In this document: in pieces, positions 3,542 through 27,199 of the stretch | Numbering within the stretch: position 1 is the stretch's first letter | How the letters are laid out: every line of letters begins with the position of its first letter | From: a virus | Virus record (IMG/VR): IMGVR_UViG_3300023257_000087 | Coordinates: 1-29,147 of that record | Reading direction: 5' to 3' (one strand) | DNA length: 29,147 nucleotides | Made by a program: the position numbers and the translations under genes | Notes under the pieces: generated by a model | What the model saw: the letters and a program-made list of their open reading frames with translations, nothing else | Database searches by the model: none | Told to the model about the DNA's origin: nothing

Positions 3542-3961
3542 CTATTTACTAACCCAAAACTCTAGTACTGCACCATAAATTACCTTCGAACTGCCCGTAA
3601 TCTTGGTGATGCATCCTTTGAGGGGCAAATCTCGAAGCACGGCATTGAGTTCAGAGCCATTGTAGTGCTGTCGTAAACATGGCTCGTCGAACAAGGCGGT
3701 GACATGCGCCTTCAATGGAATGTACCCAACATCAGCACCATCCAGAGACTCCCGTAAAGGACCCTCTAACTCGGCTCCAATGAGGTCCACCCGCAGAGCT
3801 ATCTCATCCCCTTTGTTGAAAGGGTTGTCTGGCTCCGGGGTGATGTGTACCTCTATTCCACCCTCACTCTTAACCAGTGCTTTCAGTTGGTCCAGTATCC
3901 TCTGCCTTGGTACCTTCGCTACTGTCGAGGGGAAGGTCGTTCCCGACAGCTTCACTCGCAT
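3542..3961 (-). CDS. HIRAN-like domain protein
   Basis: A small protein of 139 residues from the ATG at 3961. It resembles the HIRAN domain, a beta-barrel that binds 3' ends of DNA in HLTF/Rad5-type repair proteins. The matching features are an initial strand LSGTTF (5-10), then the acidic/Asn segment EPDNPFNKGDEIAL (43-56), then GADVGYIPLKAH (75-86), corresponding to the family pattern P-x-N-P-x-D...A-I-x-V...G-Y-I-P. No helicase or nuclease is attached, so it would act as a stand-alone DNA-end binder or an adaptor. It overlaps the SEC-C gene by 92 bases in another frame. Possible earlier starts (ATG at 4006) would lengthen the overlap. GGGGA lies 6 bases before the chosen ATG. The domain call is moderate. 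Confidence 0.5.
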   Translation of the reverse strand: MRVKLSGTTFPSTVAKVPRQRILDQLKALVKSEGGIEVHITPEPDNPFNKGDEIALRVDLIGAELEGPLRESLDGADVGYIPLKAHVTALFDEPCLRQHYNGSELNAVLRDLPLKGCITKITGSSKVIYGAVLEFWVSK

Positions 3962-4412
3962 TGGTTTCCCCGTCAGGGCATACAACCTCAGGGCTTCCTT
4001 GTCCATCCTCTGTCGCCTTTCTCTTGGCCTCCTCAGCTTGTCTCTCCAAGGCTTCAAGCCGCAACATCGCCATATGACGACCAAGATTCTGTTGAGCACA
4101 ATTATTTGCCGTACAAAGCTTTACGAATCGCTTCCCCTCAGCAATGTGATAGCCTGTATGTCCTCGTCCCATACAACCCTTGCAGTTAGGGTTTGCGAAC
4201 TCGCTAAGCTTCTCACTTTGCTCCCCTGTATCAACTTCTGTAGAAACCATACAGCACTTCTTGAACTTCTTTCCGCTCCCACAGAGGCAAAGCTCATTCC
4301 GCCCGACCTTACGAACATTCCGCACCAGAGTAGAACCCCCCTTGCGGGAATGCTTCTCGACGTACATCGGAATGGGAGTCTCTTCCGTTCTGGCTACCAC
4401 TTTCTGTTCCAT
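3870..4412 (-). CDS. SEC-C zinc-motif protein
   Basis: A 180-residue protein with a textbook SEC-C motif near the N-terminus: GRNELCLCGSGKKFKKCC, with C42, C44, C53 and C54, as in the SecA C-terminus, which binds zinc and contacts SecB or ribosomes. A second cysteine group follows: CKGCMGRGHTGY and then CTANNC, a C-x2-C-x-G-x-G arrangement that recalls DnaJ-type zinc ribbons. The C-terminal third is acidic and rich in Glu, Ser and Gly, probably disordered. The ATG at 4412 shares its A with the upstream stop (TAATG) and has GAGGTG 7 bases before it; the in-frame GTG at 4421 is less likely. The role in the phage is unknown; an adaptor to a host or phage complex is a guess. Confidence 0.8.
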   Translation of the reverse strand: MEQKVVARTEETPIPMYVEKHSRKGGSTLVRNVRKVGRNELCLCGSGKKFKKCCMVSTEVDTGEQSEKLSEFANPNCKGCMGRGHTGYHIAEGKRFVKLCTANNCAQQNLGRHMAMLRLEALERQAEEAKRKATEDGQGSPEVVCPDGETNASEAVGNDLPLDSSEGTKAEDTGPTESTG

Positions 4413-5206
4413 TAGTAGCACCTCGGTATTCTAACGTCTATGCCCATGAATATCTTCAACAGGCTTCGGATATCCCCCTCTTTGATGTAGGGGAGCATCC
4501 TGTGGAACATACTATTAGGTGGCAAAGCTTTCAACCCAGCCTCAAGGTCAAGGGAAGGAGCCTTATCAACGTACTCCATTCGCATGGTGACCTTGGCATG
4601 GTCTATCACTTGGCCAGCACTACGCAGGGACAACTCATAGAGCTTCACCAAACGCTTTTGAAGCTTACCAAAGCCCTCCTCTTCGAACCCCATGTCCTGA
4701 ATCCAGTGAAGAGCATACTCGTAAGCCTTTTGTTTCTGACCAGTAAACAGGTCAGCCACTCGTACCACTGTGAAATCCTGAAGAACCACACCCATGTTCT
4801 GGAGAAAAGCTGTGTTCACCCGGTCATAGCTGGTGATATTGCTTGTGACCTTGGACTCTCTCTTGAGTACAGTACGACACTGGTTGGCCACGGTCCTTCG
4901 GAAGTAACCCCCAATGGTTCCTTTGACGTTCCCTCGCCATGAAGAGATAGCCTTGGTCACTTTGATAAGGCACTCTTGCATAACATCATTGAAAAAATCC
5001 TCATAAGAGGGGACAAACGTCTGCACAACTGAGGTTATCATGGAGTATAGCTCCGTGATAATTGCCTCTTTCACATGCAATTGTTCCGCAGAACCGTCAT
5101 GAAGCTGATGAAACTTGATGAGCAAGTCCAAAGTTACCTGCTCATTTATCTGCTTCTCCAGCCCGGTCTCAGTCTGGGATTCCTCTACTGTAGTGTCGGT
5201 GTCCAT
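4412..5206 (-). CDS. Sigma-factor-like protein (region 2 similarity)
   Basis: A 264-residue protein with a segment resembling sigma-70 region 2, which binds core RNA polymerase and melts the -10 element. Residues about 45-120 carry the pattern: a helix ending in FVPSYEDFFNDVMQECLIKV (64-83), where the D-V-x-Q-E core is typical, followed by AISSWRG and GYFRRTVANQCRTVLKRES, matching the F-x-x-Y/W...R-x-x-x-N-x-x-R-x-x-x-R part. A convincing region 4 is not obvious, which would parallel short late sigma factors such as T4 gp55. Of two adjacent ATGs the second (5206) is better spaced from AAAGGA. It lies 10 bases after the reductase and just before two zinc or DNA-binding-type genes. A generic helical protein remains possible. 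Confidence 0.55.
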   Translation of the reverse strand: MDTDTTVEESQTETGLEKQINEQVTLDLLIKFHQLHDGSAEQLHVKEAIITELYSMITSVVQTFVPSYEDFFNDVMQECLIKVTKAISSWRGNVKGTIGGYFRRTVANQCRTVLKRESKVTSNITSYDRVNTAFLQNMGVVLQDFTVVRVADLFTGQKQKAYEYALHWIQDMGFEEEGFGKLQKRLVKLYELSLRSAGQVIDHAKVTMRMEYVDKAPSLDLEAGLKALPPNSMFHRMLPYIKEGDIRSLLKIFMGIDVRIPRCY

Positions 5207-5216
5207 CATATCCTTT

Positions 5217-7430: not shown

Positions 7431-8041
7431 GCCTTTCTCGGAGGGGTCTTAAAGAAATCTGGAATAGTATTTTCCAGCAATGTCTCTAGTCTCGTGAGTT
7501 TTACATATGCCCACTCCGGATTGATGTCAAGTACGTTGACCCAAGCCGTCATCACCTCGCTATGTTCCAAGGCCGAGGAACGGTCCTTGCGGGACCACCT
7601 AAGTGAGTGGGGCAGAACAACTATGGTCTTACCTCGAAGTTGCTCAAAGACAAGCATCGGAGTACGCCCGGAACGCACACAATCCTCACAAACCTGTGTC
7701 CAAAAATTGATAAGGTCTGCGGAAGTATTTGCAGAACGAGAAAGGAACAGGCAGTGCAGGTCAATCTCGCTATGCTTCTTGCACTCAATCGTGAACCGGA
7801 AATTCTCCGGCGTCACAACATCCCCTATGACATCTGAGCGACCGTGCCAACGCAACCCACCAGAGCGAGGTGTCGAATGAAACTCGCCCTCTACCCCGTG
7901 TGCCTCGAAGAATTCCTGAAGTTTCTTAGCAACCTTTCTCTGGAATGAAGTCCCCTTCGCCATATTGTTCTTCGATATCTCCGACCTTTCGGCAGAGGTT
8001 TTCCGTTCTTTGTTCAATTGCGGTCTGTCTTTCTTGGGCAT
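7424..8041 (-). CDS. PD-(D/E)XK family nuclease
   Basis: A 205-residue protein with the core of the PD-(D/E)XK nuclease fold: an N-terminal helix with SFQRKVAKKLQEFFEAHG, then GGLRWHGRSDVIGDVV with D74, then FRFTIECKKH with E86 and K88. This arrangement is seen in resolvase-like, RecB-like and restriction-type phage nucleases; a Holliday-junction or branched-DNA role would suit the recombination neighbours, but the substrate cannot be read off. The ATG at 8041 has GGAGGA 7 bases upstream and gives a 116-base out-of-frame overlap with the upstream gene. A later ATG at 7963 would start exactly at MAKGTSFQRKV, with a weaker ribosome binding site. Confidence 0.75.
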   Translation of the reverse strand: MPKKDRPQLNKERKTSAERSEISKNNMAKGTSFQRKVAKKLQEFFEAHGVEGEFHSTPRSGGLRWHGRSDVIGDVVTPENFRFTIECKKHSEIDLHCLFLSRSANTSADLINFWTQVCEDCVRSGRTPMLVFEQLRGKTIVVLPHSLRWSRKDRSSALEHSEVMTAWVNVLDINPEWAYVKLTRLETLLENTIPDFFKTPPRKAW

Positions 8042-8444
8042 GAGAGTCCTCCTCAGGGGGTGCTGTTGGGTAATCAGGCATGTCATGGATGTCGGAAGGG
8101 TATTTCCCTAAACGTACCATTTCTTCATTGAACATTATACCAGCTACATTGAAGCGACAGGCAGAGAGATGGTCCTCAGAACGGTCACCACAAATGTATG
8201 CGGCAAGGTGACGACAGGCGGAATCGAAGTACCGGGAAGACTTCTGACCTTTCTCCCAGTTTCGCTCGTCATACTTCACTGCCCCGGCCTCATAAAGCTT
8301 TGCATCTCTCCAAATTACATGCCAAGGAAGAAGGTCAAAGCGACCCTTACCCTCTCGGGAATCTCGCTGGCTCCCAGTGTCCATGAGTTCTCGTACACCT
8401 GAGTCCTTGAGTCGAACCTTGTCTACATCCGTGATAGTCGCCAT
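7926..8444 (-). CDS. dATP/dGTP diphosphohydrolase-type domain protein
   Basis: A 172-residue protein that looks like the dATP/dGTP diphosphohydrolase N-terminal family (formerly DUF5664), common in phages. Characteristic stretches are DSREGKGRFDLLPWHVIW (28-45), YEAGAVKYDERNWEKG (51-66), RYFDSACRHLAAYICGD (71-87) and EDHLSACRFNVAGIMFNEEM (90-109), an all-helical arrangement of acidic and His residues that would coordinate metal and phosphates. The family is thought to hydrolyse purine dNTPs to the monophosphate and pyrophosphate, trimming the pool. It lies two genes upstream of the reductase, consistent with pool control. GGAGGGG precedes the ATG by 4 bases. The C-terminal 40 residues are poorly conserved and overlap the nuclease gene. 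Confidence 0.75.
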   Translation of the reverse strand: MATITDVDKVRLKDSGVRELMDTGSQRDSREGKGRFDLLPWHVIWRDAKLYEAGAVKYDERNWEKGQKSSRYFDSACRHLAAYICGDRSEDHLSACRFNVAGIMFNEEMVRLGKYPSDIHDMPDYPTAPPEEDSHAQERQTAIEQRTENLCRKVGDIEEQYGEGDFIPEKGC

Positions 8445-8445
8445 C

Positions 8446-11400
8446 CTACCCCTCCAGTGTGCTTACTTGTCCTTTTCGAACCATTGTCCATATCTGGTCA
8501 AACGGTTCCTGTCTGACCGAATCCTGATTACTGATTATGAAGATAGAGGGAATCTCCTCCGTAAGTTCCCGTAGCAACTCCAACACAGCCCGTCTACCAG
8601 CCTCGTCCAGCTTGATGAATACCTCATCCATAATGACAAAGCCGATGTTATAACGACGAGCTACCAAGCTGTGAAGAGAAAGGTTCACGACAAGGTCAAT
8701 CCGCCTTCGCTCTCCCCCACTGGACGCCGCATAACTTTCACTTCCGTAAATGTCTGAGATAGAAACACTTAACTTGTTCCGCTTCTCCCCGCTTACGGTA
8801 GACTTCTGAGCCTTGAAAGAAACTCTAAGCTCCCCATCCGTAAGAATTTCCGAGTACCGTGCGGCAATCTGGTTAAGCTCTGGAAGAACCCCCTCTATCA
8901 AAAGGTTGCGTATTCCTGAGCTACCAAAACCTTCGACCCAGAACTCGCTGACTAGTCTCCGTGGAGTATGCAAGGACTCGATATCGTTCTGTTCCTTTTC
9001 GATATCTGCTGAAAGCTCCTCGATTCTCTTCAGAACGCTCTCAAGGTTTGCGGACGCTGGAGGTTCTTGGCTTTGAAGAGTTTTCACATTCAGCTTCGCT
9101 CGGTCCTGCTCATCCTTGAGTTTCCCCACGGAGACATATTCAGCTTCCACTCGGGACTTGAGTCGGACTTCCTCAAGCTCCCCAGCCTTCATCGTTGAGA
9201 TAAGGAGATTAGCACGAGACAACGTATTGGATACTGAAGTCAGCCTCGTTGTCAACTCCCCCATTTCACCGTCTAATGTCTGATACACCGATTCAAGTTG
9301 CGCTCTCTTCCCCGTCTGTTCCTCAATACTGGTAAGTCTGTGCTCCTCTTCTATATCGTTAAGACAAGTCGGGCATTTCGCAGTCCCATGGAGATTCCGA
9401 AGAGACCTTAAAACTGCGTCTACTGCCTTGACAGAGCCTAGTAACTCACCCATCTTCTTGTCTAGTTGTGTCTTACGCTCTCGGTACTCCTCCTGTACCT
9501 TGAGAGTGTTTTCCACATTGAAGTTCTTGAGAGCCTTCAGCCGTTCATCTTGTTCCCAAAGAAGGTCATCCAAAGCCCCTTCAGCATCCTCGATTTGCTC
9601 GTGAGCTTCTGGAATAAGAACGTCGTACTCAGCAACCTTCTGAATCCACGCCTTTATATGCTGATTCTGAGTAGCTTCCCAGTCTGCAATTGAAGCTTCA
9701 GCCTTCACACGGAAGCTCTCCTGCTCAGAGATTCGACCCTTGGTAACCAGTATTCGAGACTCCGCTTCCGCTATGGCTTCAATGGATGCCTTCAGTGACT
9801 TACGGGCAAGGTCCTCAGCGTCCGACAGGTTACCCATCTTGAGCAACTGCGTAAACACCTCGTCCTGTACACCCGGAGTCTCTCCAGCGAAGGACTTGGA
9901 ATCCCCAGCAGAGAAGAGCACAGACATTGCAAAGGCCGCTTTCTCCAAACCAAGGAAAGCCTCAACCCTAACCTGCGTATCCCTGTCCGTGGCTCCCCTC
10001 ATGTCATCCCCGTCTACCTCGAAATAGAGGCCGTCTTGATAAGGGGAATCCGTAGGCATACAGACACGGCGACAAATAGTTGCCTCTCGTCCAGAAACAT
10101 CAGTAAGCTCAACGGTGACTTCCACATTCTTCTTGGTCTTGTGATTCGGAAGCTCTTTCTTGAGAATCCCTGAAGGCTTTCCGTATAAACAGAATAACAA
10201 GGCGGAAAGAATAGTGGACTTCCCTGCACCATTGCTTGTCCTCGACCGACTCGTGGTATTTCGTCCAGCAATCAAAGTAAGCCCCGTGGTCGAAAAATCC
10301 ACGGACACAGGGTCATCCCCGAAAGCCATATAATTCCGAGCGGTCATCCGGAAGTCCATGAGGCTGGTTCCTACCGCCCTAGTCCTAACTGTACTGACCT
10401 TTGTCATAAGGTCTTTCCCGAAGGCAGACAACACTTTACTGTCTGTAATTCCCTTCGTGTCCAAAGCGTCTAACTGGAAGGCCACATACTTGTCGATGAT
10501 GGACTCCCATGCTTCCCCCAGACCGATGGCCAGTCGTACACTCTCAGTATCAACCTCCGCTTGGTTAACACCATGAATCGCTTCATCTTCAGCGTACCTA
10601 AGCTGTTGCTTCCGTGTTGCCCCCACCAAGCGAACCATATCCCCCGAAGGCAGTGTTCCCTTAGTCGCTTCATAATCCTTTGGGGTCAAGTAGTGAAACT
10701 GCGGAACATTCTCAGTGAGTATCTGCGTGACCTTAACCCCGGAGACACCATCCTTCGTAAATAATTCCACGTCCAAGAACCCTCGAACATTATCCCGGTC
10801 CTTGAAAGTATGCTGAACCGGAGCACCAACATAGTAGGCGTTCTTTGATACTTGCTGGTGAGGATGGTAGTGCCCGAAGAAGGCCCCTGTAAAGCTCGTG
10901 AGGGACAAGTCACTCAAAGCCACGGGTTCTCTACTTCGAATCTCTGAACCGCCATAGACGGCTCCGTGGATACCTAGATGACCCAACAGGAGAGAGGGAA
11001 GGATACCCTTGTCCTTGTCACTGTCCAGCAAGCCCTTGATAGCCTCACTGATATCTCCACATTCCATATAAGGGAGAAAGTAGCACCGCACCCCGTTAAC
11101 AGTTATAACTGTTGGACCTGATATCACCGTAGCTATATCGTTGAAGGACTCCAAGCTATGTACTGTCAACCCCTTCGTAGTATAGTCATGATTGCCGGGG
11201 AGCAAGTACACTTCGATGCCATCATCCCGCATGGCTTGGAAAAGCCTCTTGGTATGATTGAAGACAGGAACTTCCACAAGGTCCCTCTTATGAAACATGT
11301 CACCAAGGAATAGATAGTGGATTATGCCATTGTCCAGCATGTACTTATGCTGTTGCTGTACGGCTCGACTTATATCCTCGGCTCTAGGGGTCAAGAGATT

Positions 11401-11475
11401 CGGTCCTATCTCTCTGCACTGAGAACGCCACTGGTCAAAGTGCATGTCTCCACTAATCAGAAATCGGGGTGTCAC
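8446..11475 (-). CDS. SbcD-SbcC (Mre11-Rad50, gp47-gp46) fusion
   Basis: One uninterrupted 1009-residue chain carries both parts of the DNA end-processing complex. Residues 1-~250 are the Mre11/SbcD phosphoesterase: D10-M-H12, GD59, GNHD (94-97), LGHLGIHG (164-171) and GHYHPH (201-206), all metal-ligand motifs. From about residue 373 the Rad50/SbcC ATPase begins, with an extended P-loop GRN...SNGAGKST (to 421), long coiled coils with a CPTC zinc hook in the middle, then the signature SSGGERRR and Walker B FVIMDE near the end. In T4 the two are separate proteins. It starts with GTG at 11475: GGAGGT lies 7 bases upstream and the upstream stop overlaps (TAGTG). An earlier GTG at 11538 lacks such support. 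Confidence 0.93.
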   Translation of the reverse strand: MTPRFLISGDMHFDQWRSQCREIGPNLLTPRAEDISRAVQQQHKYMLDNGIIHYLFLGDMFHKRDLVEVPVFNHTKRLFQAMRDDGIEVYLLPGNHDYTTKGLTVHSLESFNDIATVISGPTVITVNGVRCYFLPYMECGDISEAIKGLLDSDKDKGILPSLLLGHLGIHGAVYGGSEIRSREPVALSDLSLTSFTGAFFGHYHPHQQVSKNAYYVGAPVQHTFKDRDNVRGFLDVELFTKDGVSGVKVTQILTENVPQFHYLTPKDYEATKGTLPSGDMVRLVGATRKQQLRYAEDEAIHGVNQAEVDTESVRLAIGLGEAWESIIDKYVAFQLDALDTKGITDSKVLSAFGKDLMTKVSTVRTRAVGTSLMDFRMTARNYMAFGDDPVSVDFSTTGLTLIAGRNTTSRSRTSNGAGKSTILSALLFCLYGKPSGILKKELPNHKTKKNVEVTVELTDVSGREATICRRVCMPTDSPYQDGLYFEVDGDDMRGATDRDTQVRVEAFLGLEKAAFAMSVLFSAGDSKSFAGETPGVQDEVFTQLLKMGNLSDAEDLARKSLKASIEAIAEAESRILVTKGRISEQESFRVKAEASIADWEATQNQHIKAWIQKVAEYDVLIPEAHEQIEDAEGALDDLLWEQDERLKALKNFNVENTLKVQEEYRERKTQLDKKMGELLGSVKAVDAVLRSLRNLHGTAKCPTCLNDIEEEHRLTSIEEQTGKRAQLESVYQTLDGEMGELTTRLTSVSNTLSRANLLISTMKAGELEEVRLKSRVEAEYVSVGKLKDEQDRAKLNVKTLQSQEPPASANLESVLKRIEELSADIEKEQNDIESLHTPRRLVSEFWVEGFGSSGIRNLLIEGVLPELNQIAARYSEILTDGELRVSFKAQKSTVSGEKRNKLSVSISDIYGSESYAASSGGERRRIDLVVNLSLHSLVARRYNIGFVIMDEVFIKLDEAGRRAVLELLRELTEEIPSIFIISNQDSVRQEPFDQIWTMVRKGQVSTLEG

Positions 11476-11783
11476 TAGTAAGACCTCCAGTTTGCTCCTG
11501 CGTTCCCTCTGTAAATGCCCCTGAGCACTGATGTCCACTTCCTTGCCTGTGCTCCATAAAGGCTCAAGTAAAAGAATCCGTACCGTGCTTTTTTGTCAAC
11601 TTTGATGAAGTCGGCGGGAATACTGTAGTCATAGCAAAGCCTCTGCAACTTCGTCAGAGTCCGTTGCATGATAAAGTACCCTACCTCCCCTTTCGAGGTA
11701 AAGGGGCAGACCCCTACATTCCCCCTCTTGGCCCTATTCCTTGCCTTACGATAAAGGGCAGGGTCTAGCAGAACCCTAGACAT
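11475..11783 (-). CDS. Hypothetical basic protein, 102 aa
   Basis: I do not recognise this protein. It has 102 residues from the ATG at 11783, which follows AGAGG by 4 bases and overlaps the previous gene by 8 bases. It is strongly basic, with clusters such as YRKARNRAKRG near the N-terminus and many Tyr, Arg and Lys residues, so nucleic-acid binding is plausible. It has two isolated cysteines and no membrane segment. Its stop shares a base with the start of the SbcDC fusion (TAGTG), so the two are probably translationally coupled. A longer form starting at ATG 11846 is possible, but its ribosome binding site is poor. Confidence 0.65.
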   Translation of the reverse strand: MSRVLLDPALYRKARNRAKRGNVGVCPFTSKGEVGYFIMQRTLTKLQRLCYDYSIPADFIKVDKKARYGFFYLSLYGAQARKWTSVLRGIYRGNAGANWRSY

Positions 11784-11979: not shown

Positions 11980-12235
11980 CTTCAATCACCTCCATTGTCA
12001 TTTCCAGAACATGCTGTCGAGAGATAAAGAGGAGCCTGCTTGGTAGGCTCCCATCTTGGAGGAGTAATGGCTCGTCCACATTTAATTCAACAACATCCCC
12101 CGGCTCATAGTGACGGCGAAAAGCCTCTTGAACTGAGGTGGCTTCCTCCAGACTAAGAGGTATCGTCCTAATGGTGCGAGAACCAGAAGGGGTGTACCAT
12201 AAAGATATGTCGTACACTAGTTTACGCTCAGGCAT
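11942..12235 (-). CDS. Hypothetical protein, 97 aa
   Basis: A 97-residue protein with alternating beta-type segments (LVYDISLWYTPSGSRTIRTI, PGDVVELNVDEPLLLQDG, SRLLFISRQHVLEMTMEVI), which suggests a small beta-barrel or beta-sandwich. No domain is recognised. The ATG at 12235 has GAGGAG 8 bases upstream and overlaps the end of the 5' nuclease gene by 8 bases. It belongs to the same coupled run as the nuclease and SbcDC genes, so a role in recombination is possible by association only. Confidence 0.65.
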   Translation of the reverse strand: MPERKLVYDISLWYTPSGSRTIRTIPLSLEEATSVQEAFRRHYEPGDVVELNVDEPLLLQDGSLPSRLLFISRQHVLEMTMEVIEDAESKHKGRPHS

Positions 12236-13202
12236 TGTTCAACTCCTCTAGTAATTCAGCAAGCTCTCCACCAGCCAAGTAGGGGTTCACAAAGTCTTTC
12301 AAGTCCTCCAACAAACTGAAAAATGAGAAGTCCTCCAGAAGGTCCCTGACTTCACTCTGGTCGTAGACCCCTCGTAACACCCTGTCTACTATGGTTTTAT
12401 CCAATTCAGGGGTACGGAAATGTTCGAGGTCCACCAGAGACCTCATCAAAGCTACCTGCTCTTCTCCCTCAGGAGTGAAGAGTACGGCCTCTCGTTTCTT
12501 TGTGGAAGGAGGGCCTGCCATGTACTCCGCAAGAGACCTTCCTTCGAGTATCTTCACCGCTGTCTTTTTACCTATGCCCATGATACCGGGGAGGTTATCG
12601 GAGTCATCCTTTATCAGGCACTTGTAATCGACGAATCTCTCTGGTGGCAGGCCAACCTCATCCTTGAAGGTCTGAAAGTTGACCAGCTTCCCTTTGGTGC
12701 TGTCGAACCATGTGGCTCGGTGGTCCCCTTCATGTATCACCTGCAAGAGGTCCTTGTCTGAGGAAAGAGTGACACTGGTCAACCCCGCCGCAGAAGCCTG
12801 CCTTGCCAGAGAATAAATTACATCGTCTGCCTCGAAAGTAGGAACGTTAACGCTCCCCATCCCGAGGTAGTAAAACAACTCTTGAACATAATCGACCTGT
12901 CCGAATAGAGATGACAGTTGCTCCGGAGTGAGGGTTGCTCGACCATCCTTGTACTCTGGGTACAGAGACTTACGCCGCTTCTTTCCCCCTCTGCCTTCCC
13001 ACACAACGATGACGCTGTGAGGAACAAACTGTGTCAGGGTAGCCTTCAAGCTTCGAAGGCACCCAAACAGCACTGTAGTCTCCATCCCTCCCGAAGAAAG
13101 AGCCGCACCATCCTCACGATTGAAACCATGGAACTGCTTGAACACAAGGTTCATGCCGTCCACAATTAGCAGACGAGGTGCGTTTACAGGTCGAATAACC
13201 AT
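12228..13202 (-). CDS. 5'-3' exonuclease / flap endonuclease
   Basis: A 324-residue 5' nuclease of the PolI N-terminal/FEN-1/T5 D15 family, which removes RNA primers and 5' flaps during lagging-strand synthesis. The family motifs are clear: LLIVDGMNL with the metal-binding D15, the basic arch region KKRRKSLYPEYKDGR, TFEADDVIYSLA and SSDKDLLQVI with the acidic cluster, DDSDNLPG, and the helix-hairpin-helix GIMGIGKKTAVKILEG. The polymerase encoded elsewhere in the operon lacks this domain, so this gene supplies the activity as a separate protein. AAGGAG lies 8 bases before the ATG, and only one base separates it from the UvsX stop. Confidence 0.93.
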   Translation of the reverse strand: MVIRPVNAPRLLIVDGMNLVFKQFHGFNREDGAALSSGGMETTVLFGCLRSLKATLTQFVPHSVIVVWEGRGGKKRRKSLYPEYKDGRATLTPEQLSSLFGQVDYVQELFYYLGMGSVNVPTFEADDVIYSLARQASAAGLTSVTLSSDKDLLQVIHEGDHRATWFDSTKGKLVNFQTFKDEVGLPPERFVDYKCLIKDDSDNLPGIMGIGKKTAVKILEGRSLAEYMAGPPSTKKREAVLFTPEGEEQVALMRSLVDLEHFRTPELDKTIVDRVLRGVYDQSEVRDLLEDFSFFSLLEDLKDFVNPYLAGGELAELLEELNNA

Positions 13203-13203
13203 A

Positions 13204-14310
13204 CTACATCTCCTTCATTTCAGGATGAGCTTCCAAAAATTCAGGGAATTGCTTCTTTCTGAAGTTATCTCCCCCATAATTGTACCAAGTAGAACCCTTG
13301 TCATGATTGACTACCCCATGAGAGATGAAAAAATCCAGTAAACCCCCGTAAGGGTCCATGCGAACCTCTCCATTAACACCGAAGTAAAAATCAAGGTAAA
13401 CCCGCGTGTAGGGAGGACCCACACGATTCTTCTCCACATAAACGTCGAGTTGTTCTCCGATGACAATTCCTTTTTCCTCATCACCATCCTTGAATATCTT
13501 CCACTTCTTGCCTTCTCGCTTGGTGAATAGCAATCTAGTTGTTGCAAAATATGCAACACCTGAGCCACCGGAAACGATGGGTTTAGAGGAGTAACCCCCT
13601 ATGTTTGCGTACACATGGCTCACACCAAGAAGAGCCACGTTAGTAGAAGAAAGACGGGCGTCAAGTCTCCTCAGCCACGCCTTCAACCAACCTGCGGGAC
13701 CACCCTGCTCCCTCTTTGGAGCACCACCATCGAGGACCTTGTACGTGTCCTCCCCAGTTTTCTCCAGTCCGAGGTTTCTCAGGGTGTTCGTAGCACTGAT
13801 GGAGTCCCAAAGAATCACACATGGATGCCCAGCGGGATAGTTGCTCTCCACAAAGGCAAGCATTTCCTCGACCAGTTCACACACGTCCGTTACCGTAAGA
13901 GGTGATATGGTATCCACAACACCATTTATCTTCCGGTGGCGAGTCGGTCCTATGTATATGAGGGCTTCGAGGTCGATTCCAAGTTTCTTTCCGAATTCGA
14001 AATCAAAAGCTCCTTCAACATCTATGAGGATGGCCAGTCCCCCTTTACGCTGACAGTCAACCAGAGTCAAGACCCCGAGAAGGGACTTTCCTCCCTGTGA
14101 CTCCCCCGCCAAGACCGTGAAGGCACCTCCGGGGATTCCTCGTCCCCGGAGGTTGATGGCCTTGTTCAGGGTTAACGAGCCAGTGTCATACCATACTCTC
14201 GCCTGTCCACGCTTTTTAAGGACGCTTCCAAGATTGATAGTACCGTCATAAGCAGACCCGAAGGTCTTTTTAAGGTGTTTGACAGCGGCAGTGTTTCCCT
14301 GAGTTGTCAT
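13204..14310 (-). CDS. uvsX: RecA/UvsX-type recombinase
   Basis: A 368-residue strand-exchange ATPase of the RecA/UvsX group. It shows the Walker A GESQGGKS (69-76) after the typical lead-in GRGIPGGAFTVLAG, the LIDVEGAFD segment that carries the catalytic acid region, and Walker B CVILWDSISA. A middle glycine-rich segment (GGSGVAYFATTRLLF) matches the DNA-contacting part of the core. It lies directly after the SSB gene and close to UvsW and SbcDC relatives, as expected for recombination-dependent replication. Its ATG follows the SSB stop immediately (TAGATG). The ribosome binding site is weak, so it is probably translated by coupling from SSB. Confidence 0.9.
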   Translation of the reverse strand: MTTQGNTAAVKHLKKTFGSAYDGTINLGSVLKKRGQARVWYDTGSLTLNKAINLRGRGIPGGAFTVLAGESQGGKSLLGVLTLVDCQRKGGLAILIDVEGAFDFEFGKKLGIDLEALIYIGPTRHRKINGVVDTISPLTVTDVCELVEEMLAFVESNYPAGHPCVILWDSISATNTLRNLGLEKTGEDTYKVLDGGAPKREQGGPAGWLKAWLRRLDARLSSTNVALLGVSHVYANIGGYSSKPIVSGGSGVAYFATTRLLFTKREGKKWKIFKDGDEEKGIVIGEQLDVYVEKNRVGPPYTRVYLDFYFGVNGEVRMDPYGGLLDFFISHGVVNHDKGSTWYNYGGDNFRKKQFPEFLEAHPEMKEM

Positions 14311-15129
14311 CTACATCTTCTGCTTTCCGGAAGGGGTCTCATCGTCATCGTCATCGTTGGCGTTCGCCGTGGCCTCGTCTTTGCGAGCCTTGAATATCGC
14401 CGCCTTGACTTCCTTCGGGGAAAGCATCCCTGTCAGGAACCCATTCATCTGGTCTGTGTCGAACTCTACACGGTCATAGAGGTCGAGGTCCAGCATGTCG
14501 TCGAGCCACTTGGAAGCAACCTCAGGTTCCTCAGCAAGAGGGCACGGAAGCCTTCTCGGGATGACCGTATAGTTGGTATCCGTTCTTAGGCCCTCTCGGG
14601 TGACCTTGATATCGAAGCCTTCGTCTCCCGGCTCGATAAGAGCGAACCCATAATCCGGGTCAAGGAAGAGTCCCCGCATCTTGGTGTGCGTCTCGTGAGA
14701 GACCTCCCAAAGCTGGGGACCAAGGTCCTCCTGACCACGAACAATGACTTGATACATGAACCGGTGCTTCAGTTTGAAACGGTCCACAAAAGCCATAGCC
14801 GCCTCATCGCCAGCCTTCTTCTTCGGGAACATGAGGTCCAACTCGTCACAGATAGGGCAAGTCTGGGGGACCTTGTAGCTACGAGGGCACAGAACCCTCT
14901 CTCTTCCCTGAGGGCCGAGGCCCCAGTGTGAATCCAACTCCCTGTAGGGGTCGAATTTTTCGAGACCTTTCTTGGGTGGGAGTATGCGAATTATATGGCT
15001 ATCTCCATCTGCGAACTTGAGATAGCTTCGCTTCGCTCCACCCTTTTCCTTCTCTTTCCTTGCATCCTCTTCCGCCTCACGCCGCATCTTTTCTGCGAGC
15101 CTGTGTGCTCCCTCTTTCGAAAGTGGCAT
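14311..15129 (-). CDS. ssb: gp32-like single-stranded DNA-binding protein
   Basis: A 272-residue SSB of the T4 gp32 type. The zinc ligands are seen at H68, C81, C91 and C94, with exactly the spacing of T4 gp32 (H64, C77, C87, C90). The N-terminal 35 residues are a basic, helical segment that in gp32 drives cooperative binding, and the C-terminus is an acidic tail (DDDDDE followed by SGKQKM) of the kind that contacts polymerase, helicase and recombinase. The aromatic-rich core (MYQVIVRG, LWEVSHETH, YGFALIEPG) suits an OB fold. The ATG at 15129 shares its A with the upstream stop (TAATG) and follows AGAGGAG by 8 bases. It is slightly shorter than gp32 (301). Confidence 0.9.
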   Translation of the reverse strand: MPLSKEGAHRLAEKMRREAEEDARKEKEKGGAKRSYLKFADGDSHIIRILPPKKGLEKFDPYRELDSHWGLGPQGRERVLCPRSYKVPQTCPICDELDLMFPKKKAGDEAAMAFVDRFKLKHRFMYQVIVRGQEDLGPQLWEVSHETHTKMRGLFLDPDYGFALIEPGDEGFDIKVTREGLRTDTNYTVIPRRLPCPLAEEPEVASKWLDDMLDLDLYDRVEFDTDQMNGFLTGMLSPKEVKAAIFKARKDEATANANDDDDDETPSGKQKM

Positions 15130-15695
15130 TACGCTTGCTCCTCTACATCTTGTGACGCTACCCATTTTTGTTTGCGTAGCTGATAATCCCGCTCTGCATC
15201 CATATCGGAAGGCGAGTTAAAACGAGCACCACGATGGCTGTACGATGACAGCCCTCTCATTTCCATCTGGGCCAAGTGACCCAGCATACGCTCTCTCTGC
15301 ACCATTGCCGTAAGCCAACCGCTCAGCTTCTTTAATTGTTTTCTCAGTCCGATTAACACTCGTTCCTGAGACAAATAAGCTGGGTCGCTACACAATGCTG
15401 AATCGAGGTCGTCCTTGGTGGCCTTCTTCTTCCCGAGGCTAGTCGCTAATGCTGTGGCCTTTGCTCCTCTCTGTTTGCCCTGCCATGCCTTAAACTCTGC
15501 TTCCTTCTCATCAATGAAGGCATCTAGCTCCACCCGCACAGCGTCGAGGTAGGCAAAGCGGTCAGGCTGAGAACGCATTTCATCCTCATACCCTTCCTTG
15601 AATTGAAGGTAATCCCGAATGTCTATTCGCTGAACCCCTAAATCGGGGAGTCCCACTTCGATAGTCCACAGTTCAGTGGTGTCAGGCATCTGCAT
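15129..15695 (-). CDS. Hypothetical helical protein; UvsY-like mediator candidate
   Basis: A 188-residue, mostly helical and charged protein between the polymerase and SSB genes. From about residue 40 on it has long amphipathic helices (AYLDAVRVELDAFIDEKEAE, SQERVLIGLRKQLKKLSGWL) separated by KKKATKDDLDSALCSDPAY, an arrangement seen in small phage recombination mediators annotated as UvsY-like. In T4, UvsY loads UvsX onto gp32-coated DNA, and both partners are encoded right after this gene. The identification is by pattern and position, not by firm motif. The ATG at 15695 has GAGGTG 4 bases upstream; 15689 is an alternative. It overlaps the polymerase end by 14 bases. Confidence 0.45.
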   Translation of the reverse strand: MQMPDTTELWTIEVGLPDLGVQRIDIRDYLQFKEGYEDEMRSQPDRFAYLDAVRVELDAFIDEKEAEFKAWQGKQRGAKATALATSLGKKKATKDDLDSALCSDPAYLSQERVLIGLRKQLKKLSGWLTAMVQRERMLGHLAQMEMRGLSSYSHRGARFNSPSDMDAERDYQLRKQKWVASQDVEEQA

Positions 15696-18267
15696 TTCCC
15701 ACCTCAATCTCTGTCTGGTCGGCCCAGCTTGGTCCATATGATACTTCTGCGGTGATGGGAATAATCACCCAGTCAAGTCCCCCCATATCTGACATCTCCC
15801 TATACAGTATCTTCGTGACCATGTCAAGCTCTGACTTGTGACAGTCCACCATAATGGAGTCATGAACCTCAAGCACCAGAGAACTTCGAAGTCCAGCCGC
15901 CTGTACTGCCTTCTCCACCTTGATAATAGCTCTCATCAGAAGCTCATGGCCCGTAGACTGTATCATGAAGTTGACAGCCTGCCTGAGCGCATGGTTGAGA
16001 CCGCTGAAGTCTCTCCCAATGAACCGAGCAATTTCTGGAAGCCTTCTCCGCCGCCCCAGAGGGTTCACCATAAAGTAGTTGGTCTTGGCCTCGTCCTGCA
16101 TCTTCGCAACCCAGACTCCAAGACCGGGATACATTTCCAAAAACTCCTTCTGGAAACTGTAGGCAGAAGCGAAGTTCCACGTCTTGGCCAACTGACGAAG
16201 TTCCTTCCGGCGGACCTTATCCATGTCATCAAAGCCGGGGTACAGGAGCTTGGCAGACAACGTATGAAGGTCGATGCCGTTCTTATAAGCCTCAACCATG
16301 ATAGAGTCCCCAGAGAGACAAGCCATCAATCGAAGCTCCAACTGAGAGTAGTCCGCATTGACTATGTACCCGTCTTCCTTGAACTTACTGATGAACATAG
16401 ACTTGATGTTGTGTGCCGCCAGCCAGACCTCTTCAGGGTCAGGGTCACTGCCCAAGTAGAGGTTCCTCGGAATCTGCTGGAGGTTTGGTCCTGTTGAGCT
16501 AAGTCTTCCCGTAACGGTACCTTGTTGGTTGAAGCTGGTATGGACCAACCCGTCATCGTGGATATGCTTGGTATATTCAGCGGTGTACCCCGATGAGAGT
16601 TTGGATATTTTCGAGTAGTAGTTCAACGCCTTTATCAACTCTAACCCCTTGGCCTGTATCTCTGTAGAGGGGACAAGAGCTAACAGAGCCTCTCTTGCTT
16701 CCTTGTCGGTGCTCCGGTTACCAGACTTCCTATTTATCTGCTTAGGAAGTTTGCAGATGTCATAGACAAGCTTCTGTATCTGAGCATGGGCGTTGGGGTT
16801 AAGCTTTGCCTCCTCCTTGAAACGTGCTATTTTCTTCATCAGGGATTTTTCCTGATACTCAGTAAACCGATGACCCTTGAGATTCCTTCCGGTCTGCTGA
16901 AAGGATACCAACTGGGCTTCCAGAGCTTCTACCTCTAGCTCGCCCAGCTTGATTTGTTCCCACTCCAAGGCTATTGGAAGTTCCTGTACGGCTAGGCGCA
17001 TTTCCTTGACCTTCTGGAGGTAGTCCCTGCGGAGTACCTTGGCCCGAGACTCGTCCCACTTCACCCCTCGCATTTCCATCTTGGTATAAACGAGATTTGC
17101 AGGAAGGACGTTCTCCCGAGAGTGCTCCAGTAAGCCCTGCTCCTCCAACGGCTTCTCGAACTCAATAGCAAGCTTACGAGTTACGAATGCATCCCCACAA
17201 GCATAGGGAACAATGTCCACCAGAGGAATGTTTACCATCTGGTTATCATGCAAGTCCATGAGTGTTTCCATGCGAGAGTCATATCCACCGTACTCTGGAA
17301 GATAAGCCTTGACCATCATACTCAGTTTATGAGTGCCCTTCCTCTCGTCCAGAAGATGGTGGTCCAACAGAGTATCCGCCACGTCCCCCTGTACTTCGAC
17401 ACCAAGGCACAGAGACAGGAATTGACGGTCGAACTTGGCGTTTTGCCCTACCTTTGGAGAGTTAGACTCAAGAATTTGCTTCAGGAGTTGCACCCTTAAA
17501 GCCCACTCTACTGGGGGGATAAAGACATCAGGGTGTTCCAAAGTAACGAAACAACAGTCATCGTCAGCCCAACTCAAGGATACCCCTATTATCGAAGCAT
17601 CATCTGAATAAGGGTCCAGCCCATTGGTCTCACAGTCATACGCAAGATACTGGTTCGGGTTGAGCAAGTCGTTCATGTGTTCCAAGAGATAGGCAGAGTC
17701 CACATTCTTATCCGGAATCAGGTCTCGAACTGGTTGGTCCATTAAACGAAGCCCAGTCTGGATATCCTGTATGAACACGTCCATCGTCTCAGGGTATTGC
17801 AGGCAGTAAAGAGGATGGTAGGTTGGATGATAGATGACCTCTCCTACATAAGTGGACTTCCCGTGCCACTTGGTTATGCCTGTTCTATTGAGAAGTTGAC
17901 GCATGGGGAAGTTGCCCAGTAGAAGAACCAGCTTCACTGTGTCACTGGTGTCCTCCAGAACCTTGAGAAGATTCGGAGCGCAGGCCTTCATCTGAGCAGG
18001 GGTCGGGTTGTACTTATTGGGTGGGCAACACCCAAGTACGTTGACAAACCCAACATCCTGTTCAACATCTACGCCTGATTCCTTCAGGATTCGGCGCAGA
18101 AACTTCCCTGCGGTCCCGATAAACAGGTGCCCTTCAGCATCCTCTGCCTCATCAGGAGCACTCCCTACCACCAGAATCTTTGGGTTTTTGGACCCGTCAA
18201 TACCCATATATGGGTGGGTACACGACTTCTCCAACCCACAAGGGCAGGTCGGCTTCTCGGCTGGCAT
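15682..18267 (-). CDS. polA: Uracil-DNA glycosylase/3'-5' exonuclease/DNA polymerase A
   Basis: An 861-residue replicative polymerase with three modules. Residues 1-~175 are a family 4-type uracil-DNA glycosylase: ILVVGSAPDEAEDAEGHLFIG (split at 31-51) with the APxxAED active-site loop, NVLGCCPPNKYNPTP (76-90), KAC (94-96) and HPTYHP (147-152). Cysteines at 8, 10, 16, 80/81 and 96 could hold an Fe-S cluster. Residues ~205-370 are the proofreading exonuclease with D211-C-E213, N276-x3-D280 and YACGD (355-359). The polymerase has TVTGRLSSTGPNLQQIPR (584-601), motif A DYSQLELR (D639), O-helix K695..NF..Y703, and motif C VHDS (801-804), where Ser replaces the usual Glu. Four bases separate it from the upstream gene. 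The 5' nuclease is a separate gene. Confidence 0.94.
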   Translation of the reverse strand: MPAEKPTCPCGLEKSCTHPYMGIDGSKNPKILVVGSAPDEAEDAEGHLFIGTAGKFLRRILKESGVDVEQDVGFVNVLGCCPPNKYNPTPAQMKACAPNLLKVLEDTSDTVKLVLLLGNFPMRQLLNRTGITKWHGKSTYVGEVIYHPTYHPLYCLQYPETMDVFIQDIQTGLRLMDQPVRDLIPDKNVDSAYLLEHMNDLLNPNQYLAYDCETNGLDPYSDDASIIGVSLSWADDDCCFVTLEHPDVFIPPVEWALRVQLLKQILESNSPKVGQNAKFDRQFLSLCLGVEVQGDVADTLLDHHLLDERKGTHKLSMMVKAYLPEYGGYDSRMETLMDLHDNQMVNIPLVDIVPYACGDAFVTRKLAIEFEKPLEEQGLLEHSRENVLPANLVYTKMEMRGVKWDESRAKVLRRDYLQKVKEMRLAVQELPIALEWEQIKLGELEVEALEAQLVSFQQTGRNLKGHRFTEYQEKSLMKKIARFKEEAKLNPNAHAQIQKLVYDICKLPKQINRKSGNRSTDKEAREALLALVPSTEIQAKGLELIKALNYYSKISKLSSGYTAEYTKHIHDDGLVHTSFNQQGTVTGRLSSTGPNLQQIPRNLYLGSDPDPEEVWLAAHNIKSMFISKFKEDGYIVNADYSQLELRLMACLSGDSIMVEAYKNGIDLHTLSAKLLYPGFDDMDKVRRKELRQLAKTWNFASAYSFQKEFLEMYPGLGVWVAKMQDEAKTNYFMVNPLGRRRRLPEIARFIGRDFSGLNHALRQAVNFMIQSTGHELLMRAIIKVEKAVQAAGLRSSLVLEVHDSIMVDCHKSELDMVTKILYREMSDMGGLDWVIIPITAEVSYGPSWADQTEIEVGNADA

Positions 18268-18271
18268 GGTC

Positions 18272-19391
<1,120 letters not shown>

Positions 19392-19399
<8 letters not shown>

Positions 19400-24716: not shown

Positions 24717-25472
24717 CTAATCACCGAAATAGAAGTTAAGCTTACCGCCTACTTCCCACTGTTTCTGTATAAAACCCCGCCCAAAATCAAGGCCAAGTCC
24801 TAAGTTGCGTAACCCAAAAAGACCCCTGTAATCAACATAGGCATGCAATGATACATCCTCAAGAATCTCTACAGTATCCTGAGGCTCTGGGAAGTCCAAA
24901 CCGAAGTCCAGCCCACCTCCCCAATGCCCGTTGTAATATACTCGTGCTCCTGCGCCCACCTGTGCTTCAGCGTCGAGACCCACTCCTCCCCAAACCATGG
25001 GACTGAAGGTCAACCCGGAAGTCTGTATGTCTGCATCTACTTTGTACAGGTTAAGGTAGAGGGAGTCCAAGGTACTCTGGATGTTCTGGATTGCGGTGGT
25101 ATCGCCGGGGTCAGTGCTCATAAGCTGAGAAAGTAACTGGAAGTTCTGAATGATTTCCGCCATGGCTACAGTATCCTCAACGAACACCAGTTCATAGGAA
25201 CCTTCGGGAGGTATGTAGATAGACTCCACCGAATGACTCAAGCTATCAATGCGTTCCACTATGGTGAGCATGTCACCCTCATAAGCAATGACCGCCTTGG
25301 CCAAACGGGGTATCTGGACCACCTGTCCATTGATGACCTCTACATTACCTTGGAGGTCTGCAATCTCTTGCCTTAAAGCTTCATTCTCTTGCCCCCTGCA
25401 ATGGCTCATAAGACCTAAGTAAGCCACTCCCAATACTATAAGAAGGGTTAGAACATTATTCAGTATCTTCAC
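24717..25472 (-). CDS. Membrane-anchored coiled-coil protein; spanin-like candidate
   Basis: A 251-residue protein with an N-terminal membrane segment (residues 5-22, VLTLLIVLGVAYLGLM), then a coiled-coil region (about 28-150, ENEALRQEIADLQGNVEVIN and later helices), then a glycine/aromatic beta-rich C-terminal domain with repeated GLDFG motifs, ending in LNFYFGD. An inner-membrane anchor, a periplasm-spanning coil and a C-terminal end that could engage the outer membrane would fit the last step of Gram-negative lysis (spanin role). There is no lipobox before C25. It starts with GTG, overlapping the amidase end by 17 bases, with GGAAGG 8 bases upstream. The function is inferred from position and topology. 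Confidence 0.45.
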   Translation of the reverse strand: MKILNNVLTLLIVLGVAYLGLMSHCRGQENEALRQEIADLQGNVEVINGQVVQIPRLAKAVIAYEGDMLTIVERIDSLSHSVESIYIPPEGSYELVFVEDTVAMAEIIQNFQLLSQLMSTDPGDTTAIQNIQSTLDSLYLNLYKVDADIQTSGLTFSPMVWGGVGLDAEAQVGAGARVYYNGHWGGGLDFGLDFPEPQDTVEILEDVSLHAYVDYRGLFGLRNLGLGLDFGRGFIQKQWEVGGKLNFYFGD

Positions 25473-26175
25473 GAAGCAGTCCTTCCGCCAAAGTATCGAG
25501 AGCCATGGTGTAGGCTCGAACCAAGGCCATGAAACCTTCAGAGGTTTTCATGAAAGCCAAGTGCCCCGGAGTTGTGAGGAAGAGGGGTTCCATCAAAATG
25601 CTCGGGCAATCTGCTTCCCTCAGGCAGTACTCTATACGAGCCTCATACCCACCAGAAGCCTTTGAACACCCCTTTACCGTCACACTGGTGACGAGAGAAC
25701 CGTCTTGTTTTGGGTCAAGCTCTTTGTCCAGAGCATGAGCGAAAATCTGTGCCATTGTCTCAGAGTCATCAGCATAGGAGTTATCCGCTGAGTATCCTAC
25801 CAGACCATGGGTAGCCTTGGTTGTGTCTGCGGCGTTGAAGTGCATCTGTATGTGAGCATCTATTGGTATCCTTGCTGACTCCTTCAGGCGTTCAGCATAG
25901 GTGCCATAGAGAAGCTTTGGATTCTCTCGACTGACTATCAAACCGTACCGCACAGGACGGTACATACGAAGGGTAGTCAGGGTTTCAAGAGCACCGGGAA
26001 TCATTTCCAGAAGGTTGTCGAAGTTGACCCGTGCTCTCCAGAGGGAGTATATCTGGTCCCTGAGAGTTGTGTTGTAGTCCTCTTCTGTTACGCCGTCCTT
26101 CGCCGCTCCGGGCTTGGCTCCAAATGCATGCCCTACATCAAGAAAGAAAAGAGGCAGTCCCTCTACCTTCGACAT
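25456..26175 (-). CDS. N-acetylmuramoyl-L-alanine amidase (endolysin)
   Basis: A 239-residue amidase_3-type zinc hydrolase that cuts the bond between MurNAc and the peptide of peptidoglycan to lyse the host. Zinc ligands are visible: H16 in FLDVGHAFGAKPGAA, E31/E32 in GVTEEDYN, and H112 in IQMHFNAAD; the catalytic glutamate E196 lies in SILMEPLFLT, as in the family. There is no signal peptide or cell-wall-binding domain, so release through a holin is expected, and holin candidates lie just upstream. The ATG at 26175 follows GGAGG by 6 bases. The stop of the previous gene is in the same stretch. Confidence 0.9.
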   Translation of the reverse strand: MSKVEGLPLFFLDVGHAFGAKPGAAKDGVTEEDYNTTLRDQIYSLWRARVNFDNLLEMIPGALETLTTLRMYRPVRYGLIVSRENPKLLYGTYAERLKESARIPIDAHIQMHFNAADTTKATHGLVGYSADNSYADDSETMAQIFAHALDKELDPKQDGSLVTSVTVKGCSKASGGYEARIEYCLREADCPSILMEPLFLTTPGHLAFMKTSEGFMALVRAYTMALDTLAEGLLREDTE

Positions 26176-26176
26176 C

Positions 26177-26530
26177 TTATTCCTCCGTTCGAGGTGTTCC
26201 TGTTCCCGACCAATCCTTGAATTTCTCATAGAAGTTGTGGAGGACATTGCTTCCCCGGCCAAGGAATAGGCCGAAGAGCACCATGCCTACAACACCAAAG
26301 CTGAAATCTACACCGAGTACTGGAGCCGCAATCGTATCGAGCACGGTCACTCCACAGTAAACGGAAATGAAGATTCCCCCAGCGATAAGCAGAAGCTTAT
26401 TGAAATCATTCTGGGTGAAGGACTTACCAACTATGTGAAGGATGATTTTCTTGAGCCGCTCCACTGTCTTGATAGCGGCCTCAAGAACCCCAGCCATTGC
26501 TATCGCAAAAAGTAGTACAGATAAAAACAT
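26177..26530 (-). CDS. Small membrane protein; holin candidate
   Basis: A 117-residue protein with three hydrophobic segments: residues 1-20 (MFLSVLLFAIAMAGVLEAAI), about 45-68 (KLLLIAGGIFISVYCGVTV) and about 75-92 (GVVGMVLFGLFLGRG). The segment between the first two is basic, and the tail is charged (EKFKDWSGTGTPRTEE). Size, topology and position next to the endolysin match holins, which open the membrane to release the endolysin. The ATG at 26530 follows GGGAG at 10 bases. An upstream TTG in frame (26560) overlaps the previous gene and is less likely. Confidence 0.65.
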   Translation of the reverse strand: MFLSVLLFAIAMAGVLEAAIKTVERLKKIILHIVGKSFTQNDFNKLLLIAGGIFISVYCGVTVLDTIAAPVLGVDFSFGVVGMVLFGLFLGRGSNVLHNFYEKFKDWSGTGTPRTEE

Positions 26531-26535
26531 TGTTG

Positions 26536-26802
26536 TTATGCTCCCTTCGTGATGAACCAAATAGCAAGACCGAGTATCACTGGAATGGCCCCAGCTAATG
26601 CCCCCCAGACCCCAGATTTAACCTTGAGTCCGGCGATTTCCACCATGATGTCCGTCCGAAGTTGTGCAAGGTTAATGTTGGTGGTATCCTGTTTGGTACC
26701 CAGCCCTTGTCTCTCAGTAGACCCTCGTTCCAGTTCCGTAAGGACTAGCTTGGAATATTCATTCCAACCATTCGAGGAGGACCGAAGTAATTCATTAGAC
26801 AT
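26536..26802 (-). CDS. XhlA-like single-span membrane protein
   Basis: An 88-residue protein with an amphipathic helical N-terminal part and a single hydrophobic segment close to the C-terminus (GVWGALAGAIPVILGLAIWF), followed by TKGA. This topology, with a cytosolic helical head and a C-terminal anchor, is that of XhlA/hemolysin-type phage proteins, which work with a holin. It lies just before the holin candidate and endolysin. The ATG at 26802 overlaps the cupin gene by 8 bases, and GAGGGG before it lies partly in the palindrome GGGGTACCCC. Confidence 0.6.
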   Translation of the reverse strand: MSNELLRSSSNGWNEYSKLVLTELERGSTERQGLGTKQDTTNINLAQLRTDIMVEIAGLKVKSGVWGALAGAIPVILGLAIWFITKGA

Positions 26803-27199
26803 TGGGGTACCCCTCTGATGCTGGAATTGTAATACTAATCAACCATGTATCTTCCAGTGCTCTACACATATGGGGCACCTCAGGGGGAATCATAAAAGCT
26901 TCTCCCGGTCCCAAAGTTACCTCGGAAGTAGACATAATAATCTTGAAGCGTCCTGAATATACTACAACCCACTCAACCCCCTTATGGCTGTGGGCAGGAA
27001 AAGTGGTTGACTTGGTAAAGAGAGTTCTTTGTACAGCGACACTCTCGTTGTGAAAAAGAGCAAGTCCAATAGCAGTTCCTTGGTCACACGCATATTCCAC
27101 AACAGAAGGACACTTATCTTCAGTAGCCAAAGATAAAAGAGTTACAGGGGGAACTAACTCACTAGTTAAAGCACGAAGTTTTTCAAGGGATTCAGACAT
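26795..27199 (-). CDS. Cupin-domain protein
   Basis: A 134-residue single-domain cupin, a small metal-binding beta-barrel. The first cupin motif is exact: H70-S-H72-x3-E76-x6-G83 (AHSHKGVEWVVVYSG). The second motif is PGEAFMIPPEVPH with H110 as the fourth metal ligand. Cupins serve as dioxygenases, isomerases, sugar-binding or regulatory sensors, and the substrate cannot be read from sequence. Finding one beside a lysis cassette and virion genes is unusual. It could be a virion-linked sugar-binding factor or a host-directed enzyme. The ATG at 27199 follows AGGGAG by 7 bases, and the upstream gap holds a TGAGGTA promoter candidate. Confidence 0.85.
   Translation of the reverse strand: MSESLEKLRALTSELVPPVTLLSLATEDKCPSVVEYACDQGTAIGLALFHNESVAVQRTLFTKSTTFPAHSHKGVEWVVVYSGRFKIIMSTSEVTLGPGEAFMIPPEVPHMCRALEDTWLISITIPASEGYPNV

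Follow-up and report, generated by a model that had tools for sequence, protein, structure and literature searches.

A complete SbcD nuclease and SbcC ATPase joined in one open reading frame of a virus contig, a probable phage Mre11-Rad50 fusion

A single gene in the virus contig studied here encodes a complete SbcD/Mre11 nuclease joined to a complete SbcC/Rad50 ATPase, with the nuclease half first. The stretch analyzed (the window) comprises positions 1 to 29,147 of IMG/VR record IMGVR_UViG_3300023257_000087. The gene occupies the minus strand from 8446 to 11475, where translation gives one uninterrupted frame of 1009 residues that starts with a GTG at 11475 and ends with a stop at 8446, while the plus strand of this interval contains many stops. 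The fusion is real and complete and probably functional, its function being read from two well-studied halves, and we consider it very probable that the gene encodes a phage SbcD-SbcC (Mre11-Rad50) fusion acting in the manner of gp47/gp46 of T4. The direct basis for this reading consists of the single frame, the domains, the motifs, the folds, and the gene neighborhood. The original prediction had given the same coordinates, a single open frame, and a set of motifs (DxH, GD, GNHD, GHYHPH, P-loop, CPTC, SGGE, and MDE); the coordinates and frame proved correct, with the gene on the minus strand, and every motif was located in the 1009-residue frame. The features are as follows.

8446..11475, minus strand: fused SbcD-SbcC (Mre11-Rad50) gene, 1009 aa, GTG start, stop included (frame, Pfam, PHROGs)
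11483..11488, minus strand: strong ribosome-binding site GGAGGT, 7 nt 5' of the GTG start
10717..11475, minus strand: Mre11/SbcD phosphoesterase core, residues 1-253, with D10, H12, D59, N95, H96, H166, H202, and H204
10510..10716, minus strand: Mre11 capping domain, residues 254-322 (approximate), from the predicted structure and structure matches
10384..10509, minus strand: Mre11 C-terminal helix-loop-helix (putatively Rad50-binding) region, residues 323-364, from predicted secondary structure
10357..10383, minus strand: linker, residues 365-373, ending at Met373, with residues 365-371 at pLDDT under 50
9838..10356, minus strand: Rad50/SbcC ATPase N-lobe, residues 374-546, with Walker A SNGAGKST (414-421) at 10213-10236
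8929..9837, minus strand: coiled coil with zinc hook, residues 547-849, with C701-P-T-C704 at 9364-9375
8449..8928, minus strand: Rad50/SbcC ATPase C-lobe, residues 850-1009
8710-8721, minus strand: signature SGGE, residues 919-922 of the C-lobe
8605-8640, minus strand: Walker B/D-loop, residues 946-957 of the C-lobe
8527..8529, minus strand: H-loop position, Asn983, from the alignment of relatives

The GTG start shares one base with the TAG stop of the preceding open reading frame (TAGTG). Three Pfam domains were matched above their gathering scores, namely Metallophos (residues 4-204), AAA_23 (377-673), and SbcC_Walker_B (912-969), and the PHROGs matches divide the protein in the same way, into an SbcD-like part (residues 1-333, 6e-41) and an SbcC-like part (residues 376-1008, 2e-86). 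Chance could be ruled out as the source of the motif and domain matches in this frame. The Mre11 half carries D10-x-H12, GD59, GN95H96D, H166, and G-H202-Y-H204-P-H, and the Rad50 half carries SNGAGKST (K419), C701-P-T-C704, S919-G-G-E922, and M-D950-E951. In an alignment with 28 relatives, the metal ligands of Mre11 were all present and near invariant, as were the Walker A, signature, Walker B, D-loop, and hook residues of Rad50. The protein combines the features that characterize SbcCD: a phosphoesterase with Mre11 ligands, the ABC ATPase motif set, and a coiled coil with a CxxC zinc hook.

The AlphaFold monomer model of the fusion (pLDDT 81, pTM 0.50) was built from an alignment of in-frame neighboring genes read through their stop codons; a pooled set of separate Mre11 and Rad50 rows was dropped, as it came out misaligned. 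In the model, a nuclease core extending to about residue 253 is followed by a cap, helices at 323-364, a disordered stretch at 365-371, and the Rad50 head from residue 374. Coiled-coil helices are modeled at 547-649, 655-693, 710-802, and 808-849, on either side of C701-P-T-C704. The structure matched Rad50 entries 3tho/3qf7 at Z 31-32 (Thermotoga maritima 3tho, Z 31.8) and SbcD of Escherichia coli (4lty) at Z 27.9. Residues 323-364 align with the C-terminal ends of T4 gp47 and of a homologue from a cyanophage, and by analogy with the T. maritima complex (PMC3175470) this region would be the one that binds Rad50. A gap of 28 Å in that complex was estimated to require 9-12 linker residues to bridge (Yoshida et al., PMC3175470), and the nine linker residues of the fusion (365-373) fall within this estimate.

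Homology to SbcD continues in frame to about residue 360, and homology to Rad50 begins at residues 373-374, which leaves at most about 40 nt before Met373 in which an error could be hidden. The original prediction had singled out 10200-10500 for read coverage and 10300-10500 for a possible frameshift or assembly error; the junction does lie inside these intervals, but is narrower. Met373 is exactly where stand-alone SbcC proteins begin, and an AGGA motif is present 9 nt upstream of it, so that one frame might give two products, the full fusion and a free SbcC made from an internal start, which would then form mixed complexes. We regard this as improbable, however, as AGGA at such spacing precedes about 31% of all ATGs in the window and the site is no better than this background, whereas the true start is preceded by GGAGGT.

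Alternatively, a 1-nt insertion or deletion introduced during sequencing or assembly could have joined two adjacent genes, of which SbcD would end immediately ahead of Met373 (10359) and SbcC would begin at it. Such an indel is possible, since both other frames carry stops in the ~40 nt just 5' of Met373 and the codon-usage signal drops across residues 361-372 to below that of typical coding sequence; the AGGA motif would also suit a separate SbcC start. Among the relatives with separate genes, 39 of 159 show gaps between SbcD and SbcC of 60 nt or less, or overlaps, and pseudo-fusions do get deposited. Against this, SbcD homology persists in frame almost to the junction, the AGGA motif is commonplace, no homopolymer longer than 3 nt is present at the junction, and no terminator, promoter, or leftover intergenic spacer was found in the translated stretch there. 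As genuine fusions are in addition known from other phages, we consider an artifact of this kind very unlikely.

The example of a pseudo-fusion comes from Listeria phage LMTA-57, whose 'recombination exonuclease' (1009 aa) was evaluated as a fusion and rejected. Like the window gene, it is a single CDS over both domains. Relative to phage LP-124, however, it lacks an A in an A-run ahead of the SbcD stop, and its linker consists of translated intergenic sequence that includes a terminator-like hairpin and a GGAGG site; the junction in the window has no counterpart of these. Judging from these sequences, LMTA-57 probably does not encode a true fusion. The deposited SbcD/SbcC genes of both LMTA-57 and LMTA-148 look affected by indels, the former falsely fused and the latter with its SbcC split into two CDS.

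Two positions in the Rad50 half deviate from the canonical pattern. The H-loop histidine, which is typical of SbcCD but not obligatory, is found in 86 of 93 relatives, while Asn983 of the fusion is the sole Asn among them; the Gln of the Q-loop is replaced as well, as it is in many relatives, which have Ser or other residues there. Given these substitutions, the ATPase activity of the fusion may differ. A composite scenario, in which the fusion is accompanied by free SbcC from Met373, the fusion together with the altered H- and Q-loops makes a differently ATP-gated end-processing enzyme, and the fusion arose independently of those in jumbo phages (see below), appears very doubtful. Least likely is that the fusion is degenerate or non-nucleolytic and serves in structure or regulation. 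The unique Asn983 and the absent Q-loop Gln could be cited for this reading, but it is at odds with the intact Mre11 ligands, Walker A/B, and signature, with the Gln found for His at the H-loop in 3 of 93 relatives, and with the many relatives in which the Q-loop Gln is replaced.

Mre11/Rad50 fusions are not without precedent. Yoshida, Claverie, and Ogata described 13 of them in 2011 (PMC3175470), including Mimivirus R555, Bacillus phage 0305phi8-36, a Clostridium kluyveri plasmid, and a Deferribacter megaplasmid, as well as fusions in moss, slime molds, a diatom, and Micromonas. They argued that R555-like fusions are abundant in aquatic viromes and often of phage origin, and inferred that fusions originated recurrently. 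As in the window, the nuclease comes first in one polypeptide with a short linker, and the capping and helix-loop-helix regions are retained in most. The window protein has each of these traits: both domains in one frame, Mre11 first, a cap, a helix-loop-helix, and a linker of roughly 9-12 residues. Compared by description, its metal ligands are all canonical, some of which are missing from R555, and it retains both P-loop NTPase halves, of which 0305phi8-36 lacks one (PMC3175470).

A structural search of viral proteins returned many fusion-sized matches, including from giant viruses and Tenacibaculum phages. Fusions encoded by a single CDS, with Mre11-like motifs before the Rad50 start, were confirmed in three cultured jumbo phages, Tenacibaculum PTm1 (1318 aa), Sphingomonas PAU (gp288), and Chryseobacterium MA9V-1; Tenacibaculum PTm5 and pT24 are likewise listed as encoding single-CDS fusions. 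One match in the structural search, a 997-aa protein of Lactobacillus phage LfeInf, was discarded as a fusion, since its Rad50 and Mre11 are separate, distant ORFs. PHROG 35725 (1376 positions) spans the whole PTm1 protein (3e-188) and was absent from the PHROGs matches of the window protein at E 0.001. The jumbo-phage fusions of this PHROG resemble the window protein in being one CDS with an Mre11-like N-terminus followed by Rad50 with a zinc hook. They are larger, however, at about 1300 aa, their coiled coils are longer, and their Mre11 motifs are partly degenerate (DIQ for DxH; GDIH in PTm1). Their similarity to the window protein is only weak, and the tree places them in a group apart, with good support.

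In T4 (gp47/gp46) and the Herelleviridae (SPO1/SP8, phage K), by contrast, the same domains, in the same order and with a similarly short coiled coil, are encoded by two separate genes, frequently with small ORFs in between. Among annotated phage sequences, the nearest relatives of the window protein are those of Herelleviridae with separate SbcD and SbcC genes, at 25-29% identity. In a first set of viral contigs, separate same-strand genes were found at 159 loci, and the only fusion besides that of the window was on one contig (L022, IMG/VR 3300002518_000001); a further scan of viral contigs yielded no additional fusion. Fusions in the window's branch thus amount to about 1 in 185 distinct contigs carrying both domains, counted after removal of repeats in a sample biased toward relatives of the window protein and with profiles that may overlook degenerate fusions like the one in PTm1. 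The fused arrangement is therefore uncommon in this branch. No close relatives were found when viral contigs were scanned with the fusion and with the window polymerase as single proteins, nor in scans of genome contigs; broad alignments were dropped as queries because they were too divergent. All 40 matches listed in a plasmid search had separate genes.

The window protein is a new, divergent member of a described class of fusions. The original prediction was right that T4 and bacteria encode the two proteins as separate genes and that phage databases would hold some fusions, as the cultured jumbo phages and PHROG 35725 bear out. Its statement that no well-characterized example was known to it is fair, as no biochemical study of any phage SbcD-SbcC fusion was found in the literature searched. 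The suggestion that the fusion is essentially unprecedented, on the other hand, is not supported, given the 13 fusions in PMC3175470 and the annotated jumbo-phage genes. As to the many identical fusions that were to refute it, precedents of the same kind do exist, but in the window's branch they are not numerous.

The fusion on the second contig (1064 aa) is also a single frame with nuclease then ATPase; RecA and an SSB-like gene lie immediately upstream of it, and it is 25% identical to that of the window. With the window on a long branch, a shared origin of these two fusions is neither supported nor rejected (AU p 0.10), and a single clade for all five fusions is not rejected (AU p 0.36). 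At three other loci (L105, L115, and L021), SbcD and SbcC are in the same frame with one stop codon between them. As these are one stop from a fusion, an origin in a single step is plausible, probably by loss of a stop codon, or by a small indel, between adjacent genes.

The surroundings of the gene are informative as well. On the same strand, upstream, are the following genes.

12228-13202, minus strand: 5'-3' exonuclease
13204-14310, minus strand: RecA/UvsX-like protein
14311-15165, minus strand: ssDNA-binding protein
15682-18267, minus strand: UDG-DNA polymerase A fusion, with UDG at residues 25-161, then 3'-5' exonuclease and polymerase

Also upstream on this strand are a UvsW-type helicase, a DnaB-type helicase, and a protein with a weak, sub-threshold match to the DnaG zinc ribbon, while a ribonucleotide reductase and the large terminase are encoded downstream. 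These genes form a block for recombination and replication, which fits a role like that of gp46/gp47. The T4 gp46/gp47 complex is regarded as the principal resection enzyme, producing ssDNA for gp32 and UvsX (PMC3016280).

From these parallels and the predicted structure, we infer how the protein may act, covering dimerization, docking in cis, catalysis, and biological role. Two copies of the fusion would dimerize via their Mre11 cores and, with ATP, via their Rad50 heads, to form the usual M2R2 head, which would bear two short coiled coils tipped by zinc hooks. Within each copy, the helix-loop-helix at the C-terminus of the nuclease half would bind the root of the coiled coil in the attached Rad50 half, the nine-residue linker being just long enough to reach from there to the Rad50 N-terminus. 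The ATP-controlled nuclease would then act on DNA ends, hairpins, or protein-blocked ends, and the resulting single-stranded tails would pass to the neighboring SSB and RecA-like proteins and feed recombination-dependent replication and repair of phage DNA. The original prediction had held that a fusion fixes stoichiometry; the argument is weak, since the complex is 1:1 (M2R2) even without fusion, and the fused protein still has to dimerize. The contig is a linear virus record of 29 kb, and a second, unfused copy may lie elsewhere in the genome.

While the known picture of the end-processing pathway is unchanged by this fusion, it adds a probable further case of recurrent viral SbcD-SbcC fusion, with one-stop-codon intermediates visible among relatives. 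In addition, a compact, motif-complete, single-chain Mre11-Rad50 encoded by one gene would be convenient for structural and single-molecule studies of end resection, since pairing of nuclease and ATPase in cis is guaranteed.

Several other features of the window were observed. The genome is mosaic: the terminase (899-2758) is nearest to those of actinobacterial phages (Rhodococcus, Gordonia, and Tsukamurella phages), and the replication genes, among them the polymerase (15682-18267), to those of SPO1-like phages, each at <35% identity. SPO1-like phages match the UDG-polymerase over nearly its full length, suggesting that this fusion is known there. The interval 7926-8444 (minus strand) encodes a dATP/dGTP diphosphohydrolase N-terminal domain (PF18909). 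Such diphosphohydrolases occur in phages with modified purines; no PurZ candidate was recognized within the 29-kb fragment. A 265-aa protein (4412-5209, minus strand) matches Sigma-70 region 2 just above the Pfam cut-off and is a possible phage sigma factor, and a small protein with a SEC-C zinc motif (3870-4421, minus strand) overlaps the ORF at 3542-4099. A cupin-domain protein and an N-acetylmuramoyl-L-alanine amidase, a probable endolysin, are encoded near each other (26795-27199 and 25456-26262, respectively, minus strand). Finally, the polymerase gene is adjoined by a gene (18272-19399, minus strand) whose 375-aa product has a cysteine cluster at its N-terminus and a long Glu-Pro repeat.
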